From positions 1 through 33,031 of the forward strand of contig JAPKXR010000180.1 of assembly GCA_026394715.1 (NCBI GenBank): a DNA stretch of 33,031 bases. The letters run 5' to 3'. A program made the position numbers and the translations under genes. Positions 2,114-24,793 of the stretch are shown piece by piece (within the stretch, counting starts at the first letter, position 1; every line of letters starts with the position of its first letter). The stretch comes from Methanomicrobiales archaeon (GTDB taxonomy: Archaea > Halobacteriota > Methanomicrobia > Methanomicrobiales > Methanospirillaceae). The notes beneath the pieces are model-generated. The model was not told where the DNA came from. It made no database searches and saw nothing but the letters and a program-made list of their open reading frames with translations.

Positions 2114-3391
2114 TTAGAATTTGAAATTTTTATTTACGATTTTAATCGCACAATAGTCCCCGCACATCGTGCAGGCATCGGTATCAGCGGGTGATCGTTC
2201 GTCCCGGATTGTCTTTGCCCGTGCGGGGTTCATGGCAAGCTGGAACTGGCGGGTCCAGTCCAGGTCACGGCGGGCATGGCCCATCTCGAGGTCTGCCTTA
2301 CGGGTCTTTTTCAGCTTGATCATGTCCCCGACGTGTGCAGCAATCCTTGAACTCATGACACCTTCGTAAACTTCCTCAACAGTCGGCAGGGCAAGGTGCT
2401 CAGCCGGAGTGACGTAGCAGATAAAATCTGCACCAAGACTCGATGAGATGGCGGCACCGATGGCGGCAACCCGGTCATCGTAACCGGGGGCAATGTCCGT
2501 AACCAGGGGCCCGAGCATGTAGAACGGCTTATTGTTCGTCACACGCTTCATCAGTACTACGTTTGCCTCGATCTCGTCAAGCGGGATGTGTCCGGGTCCT
2601 TCAACGATCGTCTGGACGCCTTCTGCATGGGACTTGTCCGCGAGCTCGGCATTGATCAGGAGTTCCTGCACCGCCGCACGGTCAGTTGCATCATGGACAG
2701 CACCGGCCCTCATACCGTTACCCATTGACAGGGTGACTTCATGCTCCTTCATGATCTCGAGGAGGTAATCGAACTCGGCATACAGTGGGTTCTCCTTCTC
2801 GTTGTGGAGCATCCATGCTGTCATGAATGCACCGCCGCGGGAGACCAGGCCCCCATGCCGTCCCTGGTTTTTCAGCCGCTTTATCGTCTCAAAGTTGATC
2901 CCGGTGTGGATCGCCATGAAATTTGTCCCGAGTTTTGCCTGTTCAGCGGTGATGCGGAAGAGGTCATCCTCTTTCATGTGGATGACTGCACCGTCTTTCC
3001 TCGCCGCCTCGATAAACGCCTGGTAGAGTGGGACGCTCCCAACCGAGAGGGTGGTGGCCGCAACAACGCGTCTTCTGATCTCGGCGAAGTCTCCTCCTGT
3101 TGAGAGCTCCATCAGTGTGTCAGCCCCGGCAAGTTCGGCCTGCCGGGCCTTTGCAACTTCCATATCGATATCAACGATGTCAGAGGACGTCCCGATAGAG
3201 GCATTGACCTTGGTTGTCAGTCCTTCACCAATACCGCACACCTTGACCTTCCGGTATGGTGATACCGGGATAACAATATGGCCCCCGGCGACCCCTCTCC
3301 TCACAAATTCCTCGGTGACATCCTCTGCCTTCGCAACGGCCTGCATTTCCTGGTTAATGATGCCTGCCCTGGCATCGCTGATCATACTCAT
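2114..3391 (-). CDS. thiC: Phosphomethylpyrimidine synthase ThiC (radical SAM, thiamine HMP-P synthesis)
   Basis: 425 residues, the short archaeal/clostridial length rather than the 600+ of proteobacteria. It converts aminoimidazole ribotide to HMP-phosphate, the pyrimidine half of thiamine. Family landmarks: MELSTGGDF, VPLYQAF, EGVQTIVEGPGHIPLDEI, MLGPLVTDIAPGYD, and the C-terminal cluster motif CTMCGDYC (Cys 407, 410, 414). The cluster spacing is Cx2Cx3C, one residue shorter than the Cx2Cx4C of long ThiC, so the paralogue that makes hydroxybenzimidazole (BzaF) is a less likely alternative. The start ATG at 3391 is followed closely by a second ATG at 3385. Its stop is followed by a T6 run on the sense strand. 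A palindrome sits 7 bases before the start; see the control-region entries. Confidence 0.93.
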   Translation of the reverse strand: MSMISDARAGIINQEMQAVAKAEDVTEEFVRRGVAGGHIVIPVSPYRKVKVCGIGEGLTTKVNASIGTSSDIVDIDMEVAKARQAELAGADTLMELSTGGDFAEIRRRVVAATTLSVGSVPLYQAFIEAARKDGAVIHMKEDDLFRITAEQAKLGTNFMAIHTGINFETIKRLKNQGRHGGLVSRGGAFMTAWMLHNEKENPLYAEFDYLLEIMKEHEVTLSMGNGMRAGAVHDATDRAAVQELLINAELADKSHAEGVQTIVEGPGHIPLDEIEANVVLMKRVTNNKPFYMLGPLVTDIAPGYDDRVAAIGAAISSSLGADFICYVTPAEHLALPTVEEVYEGVMSSRIAAHVGDMIKLKKTRKADLEMGHARRDLDWTRQFQLAMNPARAKTIRDERSPADTDACTMCGDYCAIKIVNKNFKF

Positions 3392-3396
3392 ACCAT

Positions 3397-3406
3397 CACA
3401 ATTGTG
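3397..3406. promoter_or_regulatory. 10-bp palindrome CACAATTGTG just before thiC start
   Basis: A perfect palindrome lies 5 bases upstream of the thiC ATG, in the context CCACAATTGTGATGGT-ATG on the sense strand. A closely similar block, CCTCAATTGTTGTT-ATG, precedes thiD at 28707-28720. Archaeal thiamine genes are known to be controlled by the ThiN-HTH repressor ThiR in several lineages; calling this an operator is inference. Confidence 0.35.
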
Positions 3407-3428
3407 GAATGAACAAGATAAAGGCTTG

Positions 3429-3438
3429 TTTTAAAAAT
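3429..3438 (-). promoter_or_regulatory. Candidate TATA element of thiC
   Basis: The minus strand reads GATTTTTAAAACAAG, an A/T block 38-47 bases before the thiC start codon. With initiation 25-30 bases downstream, it would give a short leader carrying the CACAATTGTG palindrome. Position and composition are the only support. Confidence 0.35.
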
Positions 3439-3468
3439 CGCAGACTAAATTTAGCTTGTTAAGTGATC

Positions 3469-3503
3469 AAGTAAAATTGTTTTGCATTTACACAATTTTA
3501 CTT
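3469..3503. repeat. Perfect 12-bp inverted repeat (AAGTAAAATTGT / ACAATTTTACTT), 11-base loop
   Basis: Arms are 3469-3480 and 3492-3503, perfectly complementary, in the spacer between the DUF5661-like gene and thiC (both minus). It lies about 80-110 bases before the thiC start and 85-120 bases after the upstream stop. It may be a terminator hairpin for the upstream gene (though A/U-rich), a dyad operator, or an element of a longer thiC leader. The ACAATT half matches the core of the palindrome next to the start. Confidence 0.7.
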
Positions 3504-3588
3504 TATTATTTTTTGGAATTACCCAAAATGGCCAGCCCTGTAGCCTTAATCTCCATAAAAGTATGTTGATTGATAAATTGGGGGATGA

Positions 3589-3861
3589 TTAATCTTCCTT
3601 TCCCCAGAAAAGGTCTGCTTCTTTCTCCATTTTCTCAAGGCGCGAATAATAGTCCGGGAACTCGTTCAGGTGTGCAAGCGCGATCTTTCCGGTCATCACC
3701 GGGTCATCACTGGTCACATTGGTGGCCGGGGCTGAAAGGCCATGTTCAAGTTCCACATCGAGGCCCAGCCTGAACTGTTCCATGTCAAACTCTGACCAGG
3801 TAATCCCAAGTGTTTTGCCAATTCTTGCGGCATCTTCGGTAGTAAAATGTTTCTTCGACAT
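3589..3861 (-). CDS. Small DUF5661-like protein
   Basis: 90 residues from the ATG at 3861. The N-terminal part, FTTEDAARIGKTLGITW followed by SEFDMEQFRLGLDVELEHG, matches the pattern of the DUF5661 family (helical, function unknown). The middle part ends in LAHLNEFPDYYSRLEKMEKEA, a charged helix. The frame stays open upstream; an ATG at 3900 with GGATGG about 8 bases before it is a possible earlier start that would add 13 residues, but the family begins near FTTE. It is divergent from nrdG by 179 bases. No catalytic residues are evident. Confidence 0.7.
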   Translation of the reverse strand: MSKKHFTTEDAARIGKTLGITWSEFDMEQFRLGLDVELEHGLSAPATNVTSDDPVMTGKIALAHLNEFPDYYSRLEKMEKEADLFWGKED

Positions 3862-4040
3862 TCGCGTTTCCCAATAGTAATGGGTGCTTGCCTTTGACAT
3901 AATTTTTTCCATCCAGGTAAAATAATACCCGGACGCCGACGTAATCTGGTGATGAAAAATTATGCCCGGGGCCACTTCACTACATTGAATACCACACTTC
4001 GCCATACTACTGAGCACAGATTTGATTTCTGGCGAGCACG

Positions 4041-17112: not shown

Positions 17113-17261
17113 TCTTTAACCCGTCTCCGGTACTCTCCAAGCCTGTCTTCCGGTGAAAATCGGGCCGGGTGTGCAGTCCTCGTCGCGCCGCCACAGGCCG
17201 GACACTGGCTTTTCAGTGTATAGGTCCTGTCTTTTTCGCAACGCTTAATATGACCACTCAT
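17100..17261 (-). CDS. nop10: H/ACA ribonucleoprotein protein Nop10
   Basis: 53 residues: MSGHIKRCEKDRTYTLKSQC then a CxxC (Cys 20 and 23, with Cys 8) and the ending HPARFSPEDRLGEYRR. This matches archaeal Nop10, the small zinc-binding partner of Cbf5, Gar1 and L7Ae in guide-RNA-directed pseudouridylation of rRNA and tRNA. The ATG overlaps the aIF2-alpha stop in an ATGA and the stop lies 13 bases inside PAC2, so it is nested at both ends. Easily missed because of its length. Confidence 0.95.
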   Translation of the reverse strand: MSGHIKRCEKDRTYTLKSQCPACGGATRTAHPARFSPEDRLGEYRRRVKEWKI

Positions 17262-18046
17262 GAACTCTTACCGGATTTCGGTTTCTTAACAAACTTACCT
17301 TCGCCGCCTGCCCGTTCGACTACGCCAATTGCAGCGCTTGCGGCCCTCTCAATTGCCTTCTCTGCAGTTTTGTAATCCGGGGCGGTGACTTTGATCCGGT
17401 AGGCCGGTGCACCAATGTAGGTGAGCTCGATCTCCACGTCCGCGATCTTTGGTTCGGCACTGCGGAGGGCCCGGCGAATAATGTTAACGCCATCCGGCTT
17501 TGGGGAGGTGAGGATGATATTCCCTGCCACGGTAACTTTCGGGATTCTTACGTTCTCTTTGGCAACCGCAACCAGTGCATCGACACTCGTTTCGGGAAGC
17601 CCCAGTTCCCCGACGACACCTGCCCCGTTCATGACGATATCTTCAAACGCCGTATACAGGTCCCCATATTTTTTGTATAATGCGGTCTCAACCGCATCAG
17701 CTGACCCGCCTGAAGCTTCCGCGGCGAAACTGATCCACTTGGCGGCCTTCGATTCGTTCTTCCACTCCCGGATCGTCTCCCGGCGCTGGTGTTCATTGAC
17801 ATCCTTTAATGAAAGGTCGATATGACCCCGAGACGTGTCTACGTTGAGGACCTTGCAGACCACCTTCTGGCCTTCCCTGATGTGGTCCCGGATATACTTG
17901 ATCCACCCCGTCGCGATCTCGGAGATGGGGATCAGGCCTTCACGCCCGTTATACTCATCGAGTGAGACGAATGCAACAAAGTCCTTCACATGCTGGACCG
18001 TGCAGACGACGAGATCCCCTTCCTCCGGCCATTCTTCTCCTTTCAT
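17258..18046 (-). CDS. Translation initiation factor aIF2, alpha subunit
   Basis: 262 residues from ATG 18046. The N-terminal S1 domain (about 10-85: GDLVVCTVQHVKDFVAFVSL, EGLIPISEIATGWIKYI, VDTSRGHIDLSLKDV) is followed by the helical domain and the alpha-beta C-domain that binds aIF2-gamma. The complex delivers Met-tRNAi to the small subunit. The S1 loop with ISEIATGW takes the place of the phosphorylated Ser loop of eIF2-alpha. A GTG at 18055, directly after the S27e stop, is an alternative; AGTGAG about 9 bases before ATG 18046 favours the shorter form. Confidence 0.95.
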   Translation of the reverse strand: MKGEEWPEEGDLVVCTVQHVKDFVAFVSLDEYNGREGLIPISEIATGWIKYIRDHIREGQKVVCKVLNVDTSRGHIDLSLKDVNEHQRRETIREWKNESKAAKWISFAAEASGGSADAVETALYKKYGDLYTAFEDIVMNGAGVVGELGLPETSVDALVAVAKENVRIPKVTVAGNIILTSPKPDGVNIIRRALRSAEPKIADVEIELTYIGAPAYRIKVTAPDYKTAEKAIERAASAAIGVVERAGGEGKFVKKPKSGKSS

Positions 18047-18055
18047 GTACGGCAC

Positions 18056-18244
18056 TCACTTATACACTGCAAGTTTTTCAACCTGGATGCCTGCCTTGCC
18101 ACCCGTTGGCTCGGCGAGCACTTTTCCGCAGACTACACAATCCACTTTGGTGGATGCCTTGTCAAAGACCAGCTGCTCATTTTCGCAGTCCGGACATTTG
18201 ACCCTGATAAACGTACTCCTGTTATCCCTGTGCTGACGTACCAT
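18056..18244 (-). CDS. rps27e: 30S ribosomal protein S27e
   Basis: 62 residues. Zinc-ribbon ligands CPDC (about 17-20) and CVVC (about 36-39) and the order [18 protein letters not shown] match S27e. ATG 18244 has GGAGTGA 8 bases upstream, inside the end of L44e. The stop is 9 bases from the aIF2-alpha ATG. The L44e, S27e, aIF2-alpha, Nop10, PAC2 order is conserved in many euryarchaea. Confidence 0.96.
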
Positions 18245-18252
18245 TGTTACAC

Positions 18253-18531
18253 TCACTCCGTCAGTTCAAATTTCGCAATTCTGTATCCCGGGCGCAGATG
18301 TGCCTTTTTGCAGGTCTTGCAACGGTAACGGACATTGATTTTCTTGGTCGGTTTGTCCCCACCGGGCACTTTTGAGAATTTCCCCATATTCCCGACGTGG
18401 CCTCTTCGTGCCTTCTGCCGGTCGATCCAGTGGAGACCGGTCGTCTTGCTCTTCTTTACCTTCTCGACCTCGTGCTCCTGATGATTCCTGCAAAATGGGC
18501 AGTAGGTCTTAAATTTGGCGGGCATTTTCAT
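18253..18531 (-). CDS. rpl44e: 50S ribosomal protein L44e
   Basis: 92 residues. Zinc ligands CPFC (11-14) and CKTC (about 72-75); [30 protein letters not shown] and the C-terminal YRIAKFEL are typical of L44e. Two ATGs are close (18531 and 18525); 18531 has AGGTG 7 bases upstream. It is the first ribosomal gene after the probable internal promoter at 18583. Confidence 0.96.
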
Positions 18532-18569
18532 GAGATTTACACCTATGGTAATAGTAACAAATACCAGTA

Positions 18570-19214
18570 TTAATTTCCCGGAGTTATATTTAACACTATG
18601 TTGCGTTCGTTTAAGACTTCCGCATTCCTCCGGGGAAGTGTCACTATATCTTCTTTCATAAGGTGATAAATTCTCCCATCCACGCCCATAAATGGCTCCA
18701 TCGTGTCCAGGACCCGGGCGAGGATATACCCCTGTCCGGGCAGGGGTGCTGTTTCCCCGGATCCGGGTGCAGGTTCGCCGGTTGTTTCATCGCCCGCTTC
18801 GGGAAATTCTTTCAAACCTGACGCAACAGCCATGTGGTCGTGCCGGGTGATAATGCAGATCTCACGATTTTTTGCGATTGCCCCGGTAACGGTATCAAAC
18901 ATCTCGCGCTCGGCGGGGAGCATCTTTTTCAGTTCATCTTTTTCAAGCGGGTGGCCCTCGATATGGCCCGATGAGAGGGTGAGTATTTTCTCTGCCCTGG
19001 TCCGGAAGAGGTCCTGGAGCGTCTCGCGTATGCTTGACGCCCGTTCTATCAGCACACGGGTGCGATCGCTGAAAGGGTCTTCGTTTGCATGCACATCTGA
19101 TGTCAGCTCCTCCAGTTCCGTTTTTGTCGTTTCAAAAATATCGGACGGGATACTGGTCAGCCTGCCGGTCTCGCGCTCTGAAAGGAGAATTGTCCGGAGT
19201 TCCTCGAGGTGCAC
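18570..19214 (-). CDS. Archaeal GINS subunit (Gins51-type) of the replication helicase
   Basis: 214 residues. An N-terminal helical A-domain ([22 protein letters not shown]) is followed, after a Pro/Gly/Glu-rich linker near 140-160, by a C-terminal beta-rich B-domain: [43 protein letters not shown] before B is the Gins51 (Sld5/Psf1-like) order. GINS joins MCM and, in archaea, RecJ/GAN-type proteins. Start is GTG 19214 with GGGGGTGG 7 bases upstream. It is 3 bases downstream of priS, as in many archaea. Confidence 0.9.
18583..18594 (-). promoter_or_regulatory. Internal TATA box GTTAAATATAAC before L44e
   Basis: It lies within the last codons of the GINS gene (stop at 18570), centred 57 bases upstream of the L44e ATG. 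Initiation near 18562 would leave a leader of about 31 bases with its AGGTG site. It suggests that ribosomal proteins and aIF2-alpha have their own promoter inside the longer minus-strand block. Confidence 0.5.
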
Positions 19215-19217
19215 GGC

Positions 19218-20363
19218 CTATCCACCCCCGGAGATCTCTGCCATCCCGCGGCAGCAGAGGAATACTGCAAGGGCCTCGGGCACGTTGAAGGACGATTTTT
19301 CCAGCGCGTAGGTGTTCCCGAGAAGTTTCATTGAACCCTTCACCGTGCAGTCAACCAGGATATCTTTCTCACCAAAGACGACCGCATCGACAAGCGGATC
19401 GAAGTCCGCGAGCTCGCCGGGTAACAGCCGTGTCACCCGGAACCCGCTTCCCCCGTGCAGCGAGGAAGGCAGTCGTATCAGGCGTTTCACATCGGTTGTC
19501 ACCGGTTCGTCAGCAAGGGCAGCCCCCTGTTTCAGGCGGGTGGCAAATGCACCATCCGGCGCTGAGGTCAGGGCCCGTATGACCGGCCAGATGACGCGGT
19601 CATTCTGGTTGACCGGTACCCCCTCCCTGATCTTTCGCAGCATTTCCGGGGCTGCTGCGAGGAAACGCTCCGCTGCTGTCTCGCTCACCCCATCCAGCCG
19701 TTCGATTTCAGCCATTGCCTCCTCTGCGGGCAGGCCCTGCAACCATGAAAGATACTCGGACATCGCAGCTATATAACGCCGCCGCCATCCGCGGGGTGAA
19801 GGTGAACTGGCTGCGAGGAAACGACCGGGGTCGATCCCGATCCCGCAGACATAATCGATCATTTCACGCCGCTCTGCGCTCCCCCATCCCCGGACGGCAG
19901 GATCTTTTACATGGATGTGGTACCCCCTCCCTCCTGAAAAGACCACCTCGATTTGGTCCATTGAAAACCCGAGCTCATCGGTGAGCATCGCGAGTAGTTT
20001 TATGGTCTCCTCCCTGACGCGGGTGAGCATGAGATCATAGGCCCCCCGGACGATATGGTCGGCATCGAGGTCAAAGATCAGGTCAGCACCAGCCCAGTGC
20101 TTTGCGTCCATCGTTGGTGCGCCGGGAGTCTCGTAATAGGCACCGGAATAGTAAATATGCGCCGGGGTGAACGACCGTACATACTCCCCGACCTCCTGGC
20201 TGCTCCCGAAAGCGATGTGGCGCCGCATCCGCGTCTCTCCTGACGCGTCGAACATGAGAAAACCCCATTCCCGCCGGGTGAGTGACGAAGGTGGGACAAT
20301 CGTCTCCTTCTGGTAGTGACCCGAGAACCGCTGCCTCAAAAATTCCAGGGTTGACGCTTTCAT
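19218..20363 (-). CDS. priS: DNA primase small (catalytic) subunit PriS
   Basis: 381 residues. The catalytic LIFDLDADH has Asp 98 and 100; SGGRGYHIHV near 155 binds the nucleotide; the third acid is in the late ILVDCTVKGSMKLLGN segment. SLHGGSGF also fits. It synthesises RNA or DNA primers together with PriL, which is not in this window. ATG 20363 shares one base with the Elp3 stop, with AAGGA 6 bases before it. Its tight link to GINS marks a replication unit. Confidence 0.95.
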   Translation of the reverse strand: MKASTLEFLRQRFSGHYQKETIVPPSSLTRREWGFLMFDASGETRMRRHIAFGSSQEVGEYVRSFTPAHIYYSGAYYETPGAPTMDAKHWAGADLIFDLDADHIVRGAYDLMLTRVREETIKLLAMLTDELGFSMDQIEVVFSGGRGYHIHVKDPAVRGWGSAERREMIDYVCGIGIDPGRFLAASSPSPRGWRRRYIAAMSEYLSWLQGLPAEEAMAEIERLDGVSETAAERFLAAAPEMLRKIREGVPVNQNDRVIWPVIRALTSAPDGAFATRLKQGAALADEPVTTDVKRLIRLPSSLHGGSGFRVTRLLPGELADFDPLVDAVVFGEKDILVDCTVKGSMKLLGNTYALEKSSFNVPEALAVFLCCRGMAEISGGG

Positions 20364-21970
20364 CACAGTTCCTTCTGCATATATGGGCCCCGCTTCTCAT
20401 AACCATGGTTCCGGTAATACGGCCTGACCCCGATCCCGCTCATGACTGAGATCCTGTGGTACCCCTGGCAGCGAGCGATATCTTCAGCAGCGGAAAGCAG
20501 GGAAGACCCGGCACTACGGTGCTGCTGCTCTCCGCCGGAGGGCCCGTGGCCGATGGGGACGATGCTCCCGTATACATGGAGCTCGCGGAGCAGGGCACTC
20601 TCCTCCAGTTCTTCCCGAAACATTGTGCATGGGTACCGGAGCCGCGCAAAGCCGATAAGTGAGTCTCCTGCGACGGACGAGATGAAGTGTTCAGTGCCCC
20701 CGGCGCACTCGTAGGTGTCAGTCCGGAGTTCAGGCGTCTCTGCGGACGGGTGACGGCCGATCTCACGGCACCGGATGCAACGACAGTGTCCGCCATTGGC
20801 GGTGAGCCTGGCAGATGCCAGCTGCCGGAAATTACTGTGCTTTGACCCTGCAACGATCAGCTTGGCAGGGATATCCCGCTGGATCCGCTGGAGCCGGACA
20901 TAGACCGGAAGGAGTGATTTCCCATAGGCGATGAGGTCGATTTGTTCTTCTTCGCTGTAGGGTGAATACCTGCCGTCTTTCCAGAGCGCTTCAATTTCTG
21001 ATCCCGGCGTGACAAGCGTAGGGTAGATCTTCAGGAAATCCGGCCTGAACCGCGGGTCATCGAACAATGTCCTGAACAGCTCCCGGTCCTTTTCAATGCT
21101 GCTCCCCGGGAGGTTTGGCATGATATGGAACCCGACCTTGAGGCCGGCATCCCGGAGGAGCCTGTTCGCTTCCGCGCTATCCTGCACGGTGCAGCCCCTC
21201 CGGTTCACCGTAAGGACCTCATCGTCGACATGCTGGACACCTATTTCAACTTTGGTTACGCCAAGGCCGAGCATTGAATCAATATGCTCCTTTTTACACC
21301 AGTCGGGGCGGGTCTCAAATGTGATGGCGACACACCGCACGCGGGCGTGTTCGTTTTCAGAAAACTCATGTTCCCGGTCAACTGCAACCTGCATCTCACC
21401 CGGATCTCCGGTAAAAGGGGGTCCGGGGTGGGGTGTCCGGTTGGTACCGTAGTCATTCATCGCCCGGATGCACCCGGTGACAAACCACTCCTGGTATTCC
21501 TTAGGGCGCGCCGTGATGGTCCCGCCCATTACGATCAGTTCTGCTTTACCCACGTGGTGTCCCAGGGTCTCAAATTGCGAAAGCCGGGCACTCACCTGTC
21601 GGTATGGGTCATACTGGTGTTCCCTGCCGCGTATGGCCGCCGGCTCTTCACCGGTATAACTCTGGGGTGACTGGAACGGGTGGTCCGGACCCCCCGGGCA
21701 GGGGAGGCATTTTCCATGCGGGCAGGGAGAAGGCGATGTCATGACCGCAACCGGCGCCACGCCCGAAAGTGTCCGCGTAGGTTTTACCAGGAGTACCAGG
21801 CGGAGCAGCTCCCGCTCCTCCGGTAGCGCATACGAAAGCAGGAGAGAATTTTTCGGAACTGTCCGAAGCTTGTATTTCCTGCAGATTTCGATCCGTGCCT
21901 GGCTGATATCCAGGTCATTTCGGGAGAAGAAGAGGGAAATAATTTCCCTGCAGACCAAATGTTCGTCCAT
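20363..21970 (-). CDS. elp3: Elp3: radical SAM / GNAT tRNA U34 carboxymethyl-forming enzyme
   Basis: 535 residues from ATG 21970. The radical SAM motif CPHGKCLPCPGGP gives Cys 83, 88, 91 (Cx4Cx2C). KVEIGVQHVDDEVL, GFHIMPNLPGSS and ERDIPAKL-like segments match Elp3. The C-terminal part is an acetyltransferase domain ending in GVRPYYRNHGYEKRGPYM. In eukaryotes it acts in Elongator; in archaea it works alone to modify wobble uridine. In the acetyl-CoA loop QHRSAGSSLL, the first conserved Gly of the usual QHxGxG is Ser. The start lies 7 bases after the UPF0058 stop. Confidence 0.94.
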   Translation of the reverse strand: MDEHLVCREIISLFFSRNDLDISQARIEICRKYKLRTVPKNSLLLSYALPEERELLRLVLLVKPTRTLSGVAPVAVMTSPSPCPHGKCLPCPGGPDHPFQSPQSYTGEEPAAIRGREHQYDPYRQVSARLSQFETLGHHVGKAELIVMGGTITARPKEYQEWFVTGCIRAMNDYGTNRTPHPGPPFTGDPGEMQVAVDREHEFSENEHARVRCVAITFETRPDWCKKEHIDSMLGLGVTKVEIGVQHVDDEVLTVNRRGCTVQDSAEANRLLRDAGLKVGFHIMPNLPGSSIEKDRELFRTLFDDPRFRPDFLKIYPTLVTPGSEIEALWKDGRYSPYSEEEQIDLIAYGKSLLPVYVRLQRIQRDIPAKLIVAGSKHSNFRQLASARLTANGGHCRCIRCREIGRHPSAETPELRTDTYECAGGTEHFISSVAGDSLIGFARLRYPCTMFREELEESALLRELHVYGSIVPIGHGPSGGEQQHRSAGSSLLSAAEDIARCQGYHRISVMSGIGVRPYYRNHGYEKRGPYMQKEL

Positions 21971-21977
21971 CCCGGGA

Positions 21978-22244
21978 TTAAGGTTCAACCGCGATCTTGC
22001 CTTGCGTAATGTCCGAGGTGTAATTAACCACCATTGGCTGCTGGAGCCGTACATGGGTTACGATCTCATCCCCGAGGGCGAGAATCGCATCTTTATGACA
22101 CTTCTTGTTTTTGTGGATGTGGACAGGAGAGACTTCCAGCGCATCATAGCGTTCTGTTGGAATTTCATCATTGGTGATGTTCTCGTAGTATTTTTTAATA
22201 TGTACCATCAGCATGTGTAAATGCAGCAATTCTTCCTTTTGCAC
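21978..22244 (-). CDS. UPF0058 family protein
   Basis: 88 residues from GTG 22244. The sequence QKEELLHLHMLMVHIKKYYE, then YDALEVSPVHIHKNKKCHKDAI, is the UPF0058 signature: a small helical archaeal protein of unknown role with conserved histidines. GGAAAGGTGAT precedes the GTG by about 5 bases. It is first in the minus-strand block, 7 bases ahead of elp3, so a tie to tRNA modification is possible but unproven. Confidence 0.88.
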   Translation of the reverse strand: MQKEELLHLHMLMVHIKKYYENITNDEIPTERYDALEVSPVHIHKNKKCHKDAILALGDEIVTHVRLQQPMVVNYTSDITQGKIAVEP

Positions 22245-22283
22245 AGTATCACCTTTCCTCAAAATTTACTATTTCCGAGAGCA

Positions 22284-22318: not shown

Positions 22319-23194
22319 GTGAACGCGGTGGGAGCCCTGACGGGGCTCGCAATTGGGGATGCAATGGGTGCGCCCTTTGAGGGGTACCCCCCATCCCTGA
22401 TGCCAGTGACAAAAATGCAAAGCGACGGGCTGCGTAAACGAAATGCAGGCCATTACACAGATGACACGCTCCAGGCGATCGCTGTTGCCGAATCGCTGAT
22501 TCAATGCAGGGGCTTTTGCCCAAACGATCTCATGCAACGCCTTATTGTCGGTTATAAGCGCTATCCTGAATATTACGGCCCCACTTCGCGTGCAGTGTTT
22601 GACCTGGTGGAGTCGGGTATCCCCCCTTAACGTGCGGCAGAGATCGTCCATGAACGAACGGGAGGCAGCCGGAGCAACGGGAGTGTAATGAGGGGTCCAC
22701 CAGTAGGAATATTTTTTTCCGGGCCTTCCCTGCGCGAGGTGAGTCTCCGGTGTTCACAGCTGACCCACCATGACAGGACGGCAGCCGAGTGTTCGGCCTG
22801 GGTGAACCAGATGGTATCTGACATGTGTCGCGGTTATTCCCGTGCAGGGGCATTCGCCCGTGCTCTTCAACGCTGCAATGACGACGACGTCATCAGGGTG
22901 CTCGGGGCGTACCACCGGTATGACCCGGAGCCTGCCCTTGATGCGCTCCTCGCAACGCATGCAGCACTCAAGGTCTTTATGGACAGCCGGTCATTTGAAG
23001 GGACGATTGTCCGGGCAATTGGTCTTGGTGGCGATACTGACACGGTAGGTGCCGTTGCCGGAGCCCTTGCCGGTGCCTGGTCAGGTACCGGGGGCATCCC
23101 CTGCAGGTGGCTCGTGGACCTCGAGGACTGCGGGATGATCACATCTCTTGGGGCCCGGCTCTGGACGGTATCGCAGTCGACCGGGCATCGGTAG
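22319..23194 (+). pseudogene. ADP-ribosylglycohydrolase family gene with one in-frame TAA
   Basis: One reading frame runs from GTG 22319 (TTG 22295 and GTG 22328 are alternatives) to 23194, broken only by TAA at 22628-22630. Both halves carry intact family motifs: GLAIGDAMGAPFEG, GHYTDDTLQAIAVAESL, then RAAEIVHERTGGSRSNGSVM after the stop, LTHHDRTAAECSAW and GGDTDTVGAVAGALAG, which supply the Mg-binding acids. These enzymes remove ADP-ribose from proteins or nitrogenase reductase. The 103-codon first part lacks the second metal site. The result may be a recent pseudogene, a sequencing error, or readthrough; the pyrrolysine codon is TAG, not TAA. Confidence 0.88.
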
Positions 23195-23261: not shown

Positions 23262-23708
23262 TCAGGGGGACATCAGGTGAACGAGCTGGAGCGTCCGACT
23301 TTTTTCACAGGGATACGGGGCGTTGCCGATTACTTCCACGACAACATATTTCTCACCCTCAAGGATCCCGTCCGGGTGGCACAGGGAGTAATTTGTACAG
23401 TCTTCCTTAGTGCAGGTGTACTCGTAGCGTATCCTGCTGTTTTTAATCACCATTTCTGCATTCAAAAGGGCAGCGATGGGCGACTCTACCACTTCAACCG
23501 CACAGGTGCCGTCCCGGTGGACCAGGCAGTCATGTTTCGCCGGCCGGACATTCACAATACGGTACCGCTTCCCTTCCTTCAAGTTATTGCAGGCCTTTTT
23601 AAGCGGGCAGGGCTTGCATTCATCGAGTGATCCTTCATAGACAAATTCGAGCCCAACCTTTGCAAGCCTGGTCCCGATCAGGGTAACTTTCGGTTTCGCT
23701 TCTGCCAT
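23262..23708 (-). CDS. UPF0179 family cysteine-rich protein
   Basis: 148 residues from ATG 23708. Two cysteine groups, CKPCPLKKACNNL near 32 and YTCTKEDCTNYSLC near 97, suggest a bound metal or Fe-S cluster; VTLIGTRLAKVGLEFVYEG at the start is typical of archaeal UPF0179. Function is unknown. GGAGTGA overlapping the G1P dehydrogenase stop serves as its ribosome site, so the two genes are coupled. Confidence 0.9.
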   Translation of the reverse strand: MAEAKPKVTLIGTRLAKVGLEFVYEGSLDECKPCPLKKACNNLKEGKRYRIVNVRPAKHDCLVHRDGTCAVEVVESPIAALLNAEMVIKNSRIRYEYTCTKEDCTNYSLCHPDGILEGEKYVVVEVIGNAPYPCEKSRTLQLVHLMSP

Positions 23709-23713
23709 CCCGT

Positions 23714-24793
23714 TCACTCCCGGTAGAGCATTCGTACGAGTTCCGACGCAGATTCCTCGTTTAGTCCCATATCAAGTATGGTGAAGCGCTCCGGGCGGAT
23801 AGTCTTTGCCATAAGGAGCGCGTCCACCGCAACCGAATCCGGAATATCAAGTTCGGCCGGGGTGACCGGGGCACCAACGCTTCGCAATGCCTCACGGATC
23901 GTCTTCCAGTCACCGCCATGCAGGTACATTGCGATGATTGTCCCGATACCGCATGCCTCGCCGTGGAGTGCTTTACCGGGCGCGAGGTGTTCAAGGGCAT
24001 GACCGAACTTATGTTCACTCCCGCTGCCAGGTCTCGATGAACCTGCAATGCTCATTGCGACGCCGGAAGAGACGAGCGCCCTTGTGACAAACCAGGCGGT
24101 CTCCTCGTTATGGGGTTTTAGCACGTGGGCATTTTTCATCAGCAGTTCTGCGGTCATTTTCGATAAGGCAACGGCATACTCTGATACCTTCTCTCCACGC
24201 AACCGGTGGGCGAGCTCCCAGTCGAGTATCGCGGTGTAGTTTGAGATAATATCGGCACACCCGGCCGCAAGAAGACGGTGGGGGGCCGCGGCAATGATCC
24301 CCGTATCGGCGACTATCGCGATCGGGGGCTGCGCCTCGAGCGACCCACGCCCCTCTGTGGTCGGTACGCTGGCCCTCGCTGACGCGATACCATCATGAGA
24401 GGCCGCAGTAGGGACGCTGATGAACTGGCGGTCAAGGTTATAGGCGGTGATCTTTGCCGTATCGATGACACGGCCACCACCTACCCCGATGAGAAAATCC
24501 ACATCTTTTGCAGCATTTTCTGCCAGCCTGATCACTTCGGGGTTGATTGTTTCGGCGGTGAAGGTGGTGATGTCGCACGTGTCTGCCATGATCGCCCTGA
24601 CCTGTTCCCCTGCAATATCCCGGGTATGGCCGCCGGAAACGATGAGGACGGAATGACCTATCCTGAGATCCTCACAGACGGCCGGGAGCTGGGTGAGCAC
24701 GTCGTGTCCGATTACGACGTCCCTTGGCAACTGCATCCACTTGGATTTTGCAAAAATTTTATTTTTCAGTACTTTTATACTTCCGGCACTCAT
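23714..24793 (-). CDS. egsA: sn-Glycerol-1-phosphate dehydrogenase
   Basis: 359 residues. NAD(P)-binding GVGGGRVIDTAK and zinc ligands in TAASHDGIAS, SEHKFGHALEH and LHGEACGIG identify G1P dehydrogenase, which reduces dihydroxyacetone phosphate to sn-glycerol-1-phosphate and so sets the stereochemistry of archaeal lipids. The geranylgeranyl reductase at 14588 acts at the last step of the same pathway. ATG 24793 is only 11 bases from the divergent DUF63 ATG, so its promoter must lie inside that gene; TAGTATTTGTAG (minus, 24822-24833) is a candidate. Confidence 0.95.
   Translation of the reverse strand: MSAGSIKVLKNKIFAKSKWMQLPRDVVIGHDVLTQLPAVCEDLRIGHSVLIVSGGHTRDIAGEQVRAIMADTCDITTFTAETINPEVIRLAENAAKDVDFLIGVGGGRVIDTAKITAYNLDRQFISVPTAASHDGIASARASVPTTEGRGSLEAQPPIAIVADTGIIAAAPHRLLAAGCADIISNYTAILDWELAHRLRGEKVSEYAVALSKMTAELLMKNAHVLKPHNEETAWFVTRALVSSGVAMSIAGSSRPGSGSEHKFGHALEHLAPGKALHGEACGIGTIIAMYLHGGDWKTIREALRSVGAPVTPAELDIPDSVAVDALLMAKTIRPERFTILDMGLNEESASELVRMLYRE
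24772..24780 (+). promoter_or_regulatory. TATA box CTTTTATAC of the DUF63 gene
   Basis: Centred about 29 bases before ATG 24805 and inside the 5' coding region of egsA. There is no Shine-Dalgarno site before the ATG, so the transcript is probably leaderless. Confidence 0.5.

Follow-up and report, generated by a model that had tools for sequence, protein, structure and literature searches.

A recent nonsense mutation has likely inactivated, or is inactivating if the site is polymorphic, a gene of the ADP-ribosylglycohydrolase (ARH) family that is otherwise kept at its locus in the Methanomicrobiales. The window, by which the whole analysed stretch of 33,031 nucleotides is meant, is contig C327 of genome bin G000 (3.25 Mb, 402 contigs, 98% complete), and the closest relatives by the ARH gene are uncultured Methanomicrobiales and Methanoregulaceae bins. 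The forward-strand frame 22319-23194 reads as a single ARH-family protein broken by one TAA at codon 104 and terminated by a TAG ending at 23194. The features of the locus are as follows.

20363-22054, minus strand: elp3, intact (TIGR01211, 675 bits)
21978-22262, minus strand: UPF0058 gene, divergent neighbour, intact (PF01893 and synteny)
22319-22627, plus strand: ARH N-terminal half, 103 codons, carrying E21 and the metal motif TDDT (PF03747 profile 1-110)
22628-22630, plus strand: in-frame TAA, codon 104, whose aligned residue opens helix 103-113 of the sister-ortholog model (sequence and model)
22631-23194, plus strand: ARH C-terminal half, 187 codons plus the TAG, carrying SNGxxMR, TH and the metal motif GGDTDT (PF03747 profile 118-286)
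22688-23194, plus strand: longest downstream open reading frame with a start codon (ATG), 168 aa, lacking N120-G121 and the first metal motif
23262-23717, minus strand: UPF0179 gene, convergent neighbour, intact (PF03684)
23714-24793, minus strand: egsA, glycerol-1-phosphate dehydrogenase, intact (NF002022, 509 bits)

The two halves match PF03747 separately, with E-values of 2.2e-22 upstream and 3.6e-26 downstream of the stop, and a search of the whole genome joins them in one match spanning "1 TAA" at 184.6 bits (cut-off 26.2). They lie in order and in one frame, with no frameshift between them, and since the TAA has in-frame parts of a single family profile on either side, its position within an ARH frame is not due to chance. 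Every motif is kept, namely E21, TDDT (47-50), SNGxxMR (119-125), TH (149-150) and GGDTDT (237-242). The window gene also shows the residues that do not vary in an alignment of 17 diverse homologs, among them E21, D48, D49, D239, D241 and T242. An earlier note on this DNA had described a single in-frame TAA splitting an ARH gene that keeps its family motifs, including both metal sites, and the profile halves and the motif reading confirm that description. The listed start is the GTG at 22319; because a start codon is missing at that place in the sister species (G001), the true start is uncertain, and another codon between 22295 and 22328 may serve instead.

Compared with its intact orthologs, the window gene carries a disabling lesion that is its own. 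When the intact G001 protein was searched against 108 genomes of the family, some match was found in 102, and among the 81 full-length orthologs counted (at least 47% identity, the query's own genome included) a mid-gene stop occurs only in the window's copy. This count leaves aside five genomes whose match is partial or split (G003, G068, G121, G122 and G130), of which the G068 match is interrupted by unknown bases while the G003 copy is truly broken. A TGA flagged for four other orthologs is the ordinary terminal stop, read through by the alignment. The codon aligned to the TAA is a sense codon in all 19 in-frame relatives fetched and falls in a variable column (E, D, S, Q, H, F, L, L, Y, G, S, L, P, H, H, S, H, H and F). 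With no mid-gene stop in 80 of the 81 orthologs and a sense codon in the 19 relatives, the TAA counts as a derived lesion and not as a conserved recoding site.

The place of the gene is fixed across the order, in the arrangement elp3 - UPF0058 - ARH - UPF0179 - egsA. All parts are present in the same order in 19 of 20 fetched relatives from the genus and family, the remaining one (L037) stopping at a contig edge, and extra DNA separates ARH from UPF0179 in some of them (L046, L047, L050 and others). The order is also kept in 18 further loci (L014-L031) that include other families of the order, visible only in part within the stretch covered for L024, L028 and L031. Past elp3 follow PriS, a GINS-like protein, L44E and aIF2-alpha, the PriS and GINS Pfam matches being below the gathering score. 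PriS comes next after elp3 in 24 of 33 loci searched; the other nine, without a PriS match (L037, L132-L139), have sequence that stops at or before that place. The ARH gene (22319-23194) is divergent from the aIF2-alpha / L44E / GINS / PriS / elp3 cluster (17258-22262), an arrangement kept in relatives. The cluster beyond elp3 matches one described in a 2008 context study (PMC2643942), where regulation of archaeal replication by ADP-ribosylation is put forward as an untested proposal.

To estimate selection on the window gene, six species were fitted with a Goldman-Yang branch model, in which the stop codon was masked and G003 was entered as separate pieces. Omega on the G000 branch is 0.241 against a background of 0.188 (2dlnL 0.63, not significant), a value that cannot tell a gene lost yesterday from one not lost, and omega = 1 on that branch is rejected (2dlnL 19.0). 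The omega profile drops 1.9 units near 0.43, and with this upper bound no more than about 31% of the branch can have been neutral. Omega is somewhat higher in the half after the stop (0.28 vs 0.15), again not significantly (2dlnL 2.2). In G003, whose tree position is weakly supported (84 and 56), selection is likewise not relaxed (omega 0.13), and the other arrangement gives a G000-branch omega of 0.243. The window gene was therefore under purifying selection until recently; it lacks the relaxed selection expected of a pseudogene, and if it is one, it must be recent, as no relaxation is seen on its branch. The earlier proposal of a very recent loss is accordingly supported by the single lesion, the retention of all motifs, the branch omega near background and the sense codon in 19 orthologs. 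Dating by stop count was tried and found uninformative, with about 2.2 stops expected even on a wholly neutral branch. In the flanking genes elp3, UPF0179 and egsA (19221-22054 and 23262-24793) omega is raised on the G000 branch (0.148 vs 0.072, 2dlnL 11.3), perhaps through scattered errors or a reduced population size. This rise, and the presence of just a single lesion in the ARH gene, weigh against the main reading.

The alternative that survives best, though rather unlikely, is that the organism carries an intact gene and that the stop in its metagenome bin comes from an error in the consensus or from an assembler that fixed a minority allele. Such an error or mixed-strain call is possible because the species is represented here by one genome consensus; the division of the bin into 402 contigs and the unrelaxed dN/dS on the G000 branch speak for it, and by our own estimate even a very low error rate yields about one false stop per genome once thousands of genes are scanned. 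Against it, unique deviations at near-invariant columns of the locus number 1 in 698 for the window, compared with 4, 1 and 3 in G001-G003, the flanking genes are free of frameshifts and stops, and independent lesions in the same gene of a congener, described below, fit a real tolerance of loss. The nonsense lesion is probably real in the organism.

Interrupted genes were also sought elsewhere in the bin. Sampled G000 contigs were compared by homology with open reading frames from a third of contig C1 of G016, giving 75 non-redundant matches over 257,109 unmasked bases, the window included. Two of these were judged by eye to be genuine genes interrupted by an in-frame stop, namely the window ARH and an ABC transporter (L156, 5247, TGA). 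The remaining flagged matches were taken as shadow open reading frames or gene ends, save one in L162 at 1181, so that the G000 pseudogene rate is a rough one. In the ABC transporter, which we take to belong to a bacteriocin-export-like pair, the TGA (G000:C321, 5247-5249) stands just after the AHR of the ATPase domain, and homology runs on past it. A codon-usage scan of sampled contigs for interrupted genes was discarded; it gave 86 G000 candidates, by our reading mostly antisense shadow open reading frames, and missed the window ARH.

That the protein is still made, either because the UAA is read through or because the halves are translated separately and assemble, is very improbable. The retention of all motifs, a branch omega well below 1 and an in-frame ATG 57 nt past the stop would agree with it. 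Readthrough, which the earlier note had listed as an option, fares poorly: none of the 19 in-frame relatives has a stop at this site, so the conservation expected of a readthrough stop is missing, TAA is the terminator of 14 of the 28 window genes counted, and among 39 tRNA matches no UAA-decoding anticodon appears in the 38 that could be read (L269 lacks a readable anticodon). A split enzyme, in turn, would lose N120-G121, invariant across the 17 diverse homologs, upon re-initiation at 22688; an ARH acting as two separately translated chains is a still bolder reading than the repeated loss discussed below. A phase-variable or programmed on/off switch, also raised before, is scarcely credible despite the C6 tract just ahead of the stop, since the gene equals its intact orthologs in length and the TAA is a base substitution not reversible by slippage, which in the C6 tract would shift the frame and not remove an in-frame stop.

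If the nonsense mutation has taken effect, the product would be cut short at about 103 residues. In the ARH fold, metal ligands are drawn from both sides of the break (E21 and TDDT before it, DTDT after it), and for this reason neither fragment is expected to be active. According to PMC6309922, ARH1 and ARH3 require both metal ions, and changing one metal ligand leaves them inactive. The model of the intact G001 ortholog, from CAIJED010000168.1, is a single helical domain of 290 residues (mean pLDDT 95.5, pTM 0.94), with the Thermus ARH-related structures 2yzv/2cwc closest among solved structures (TMq 0.87), followed by MJ1187 (1t5j), DraG (2woc) and ARH3. The activity of this enzyme would thus be lost.

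Identity of the enzyme as DraG or as the Tri1 ADP-ribosylarginine hydrolase was rejected, the intact sister ortholog scoring 84 bits against a cut-off of 337 for TIGR02662 and 99 bits against 490 for NF041672. The intact partner set that had been placed next to the gene is not supported, as the neighbours are elp3, UPF0058, UPF0179 and egsA. DraT was matched in none of the four genomes of the genus, in a search to which the control genomes were silent as well, and searches of the G000 genome for a macrodomain, DarT and KptA found none; the only DarT match came from G001. The NifH search gave strong matches in every genome, nitrogenase and NifH-like proteins being pooled. G000 also has another ARH-family gene, which is intact and longer, its protein bearing a long N-terminal extension (L001, contig C250, 1423-2877), so some ARH activity may remain there.

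The same gene is broken independently in a congener. In G003, a 65% complete bin, the ARH copy (L034, G003:C193, about 3270-3993) carries a 7-nt tandem duplication, which shifts the frame and ends the protein after 164 codons, and further on a 141-nt deletion, with the flanking genes at full length. It shares no lesion with the window copy, and two broken copies are thus found among four species of one genus. In the genus g13, the family search with the G001 protein found no ARH ortholog in 12 genomes; in six inspected g13 genomes and in G009 of genus g7, UPF0058 directly adjoins UPF0179, and the locus elp3 - UPF0058 - UPF0179 - egsA is kept without ARH (L132-L138). As the ARH-bearing locus is found across the order, loss in g13 and G009 is the simpler reading, and a gene missing from an otherwise kept locus in seven inspected genomes indicates that its loss is tolerated. 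An ARH-family paralog in a related genus (L007, G036:C49, minus strand) has one in-frame TAG. Repeated, recent loss of the ARH gene is the best reading of the pattern. The bold claim of a repeated and recent loss, within one genus, of the ARH that stands beside the replication-translation cluster throughout the Methanomicrobiales is, at present, quite unlikely.

Single-stop gene losses are common in prokaryotes, and the loss event in the window is ordinary for that reason. The lesion is ordinary in kind, and parallel loss within the genus is its only unusual feature. A literature search found no published account of this ARH gene or of its loss. The added value lies in the gene, an uncharacterised ARH whose place beside elp3 and the primase/GINS/aIF2-alpha cluster is fixed throughout the order and whose natural presence/absence pairs offer a way into the proposed control of archaeal replication by ADP-ribosylation; if the repeated loss is true, there would be natural null strains in which such control of archaeal replication or translation can be tested.

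Among known systems, the window gene resembles the PF03747 ARH family in that its two halves together cover the full profile, and differs in being interrupted by a TAA. It shares the ARH3-type motif pattern E...TDDT...DTDT set out in PMC6309922, and all three elements of the dinuclear metal site (E, TDDT and DTDT) are in place. Members of the family form a single uninterrupted helical domain, about 290-360 residues long according to PMC7050489; the sister ortholog does so with its 290 residues and the window gene, cut at codon 104, does not. Judged by its sequence, the latter is a broken member of the family and not a working one. A recent nonsense pseudogene or null allele is matched by the one in-frame stop and by the intact motifs and selection signal, the difference being that a congener has its own, independent breaks in the same ARH and that a related genus lacks it.
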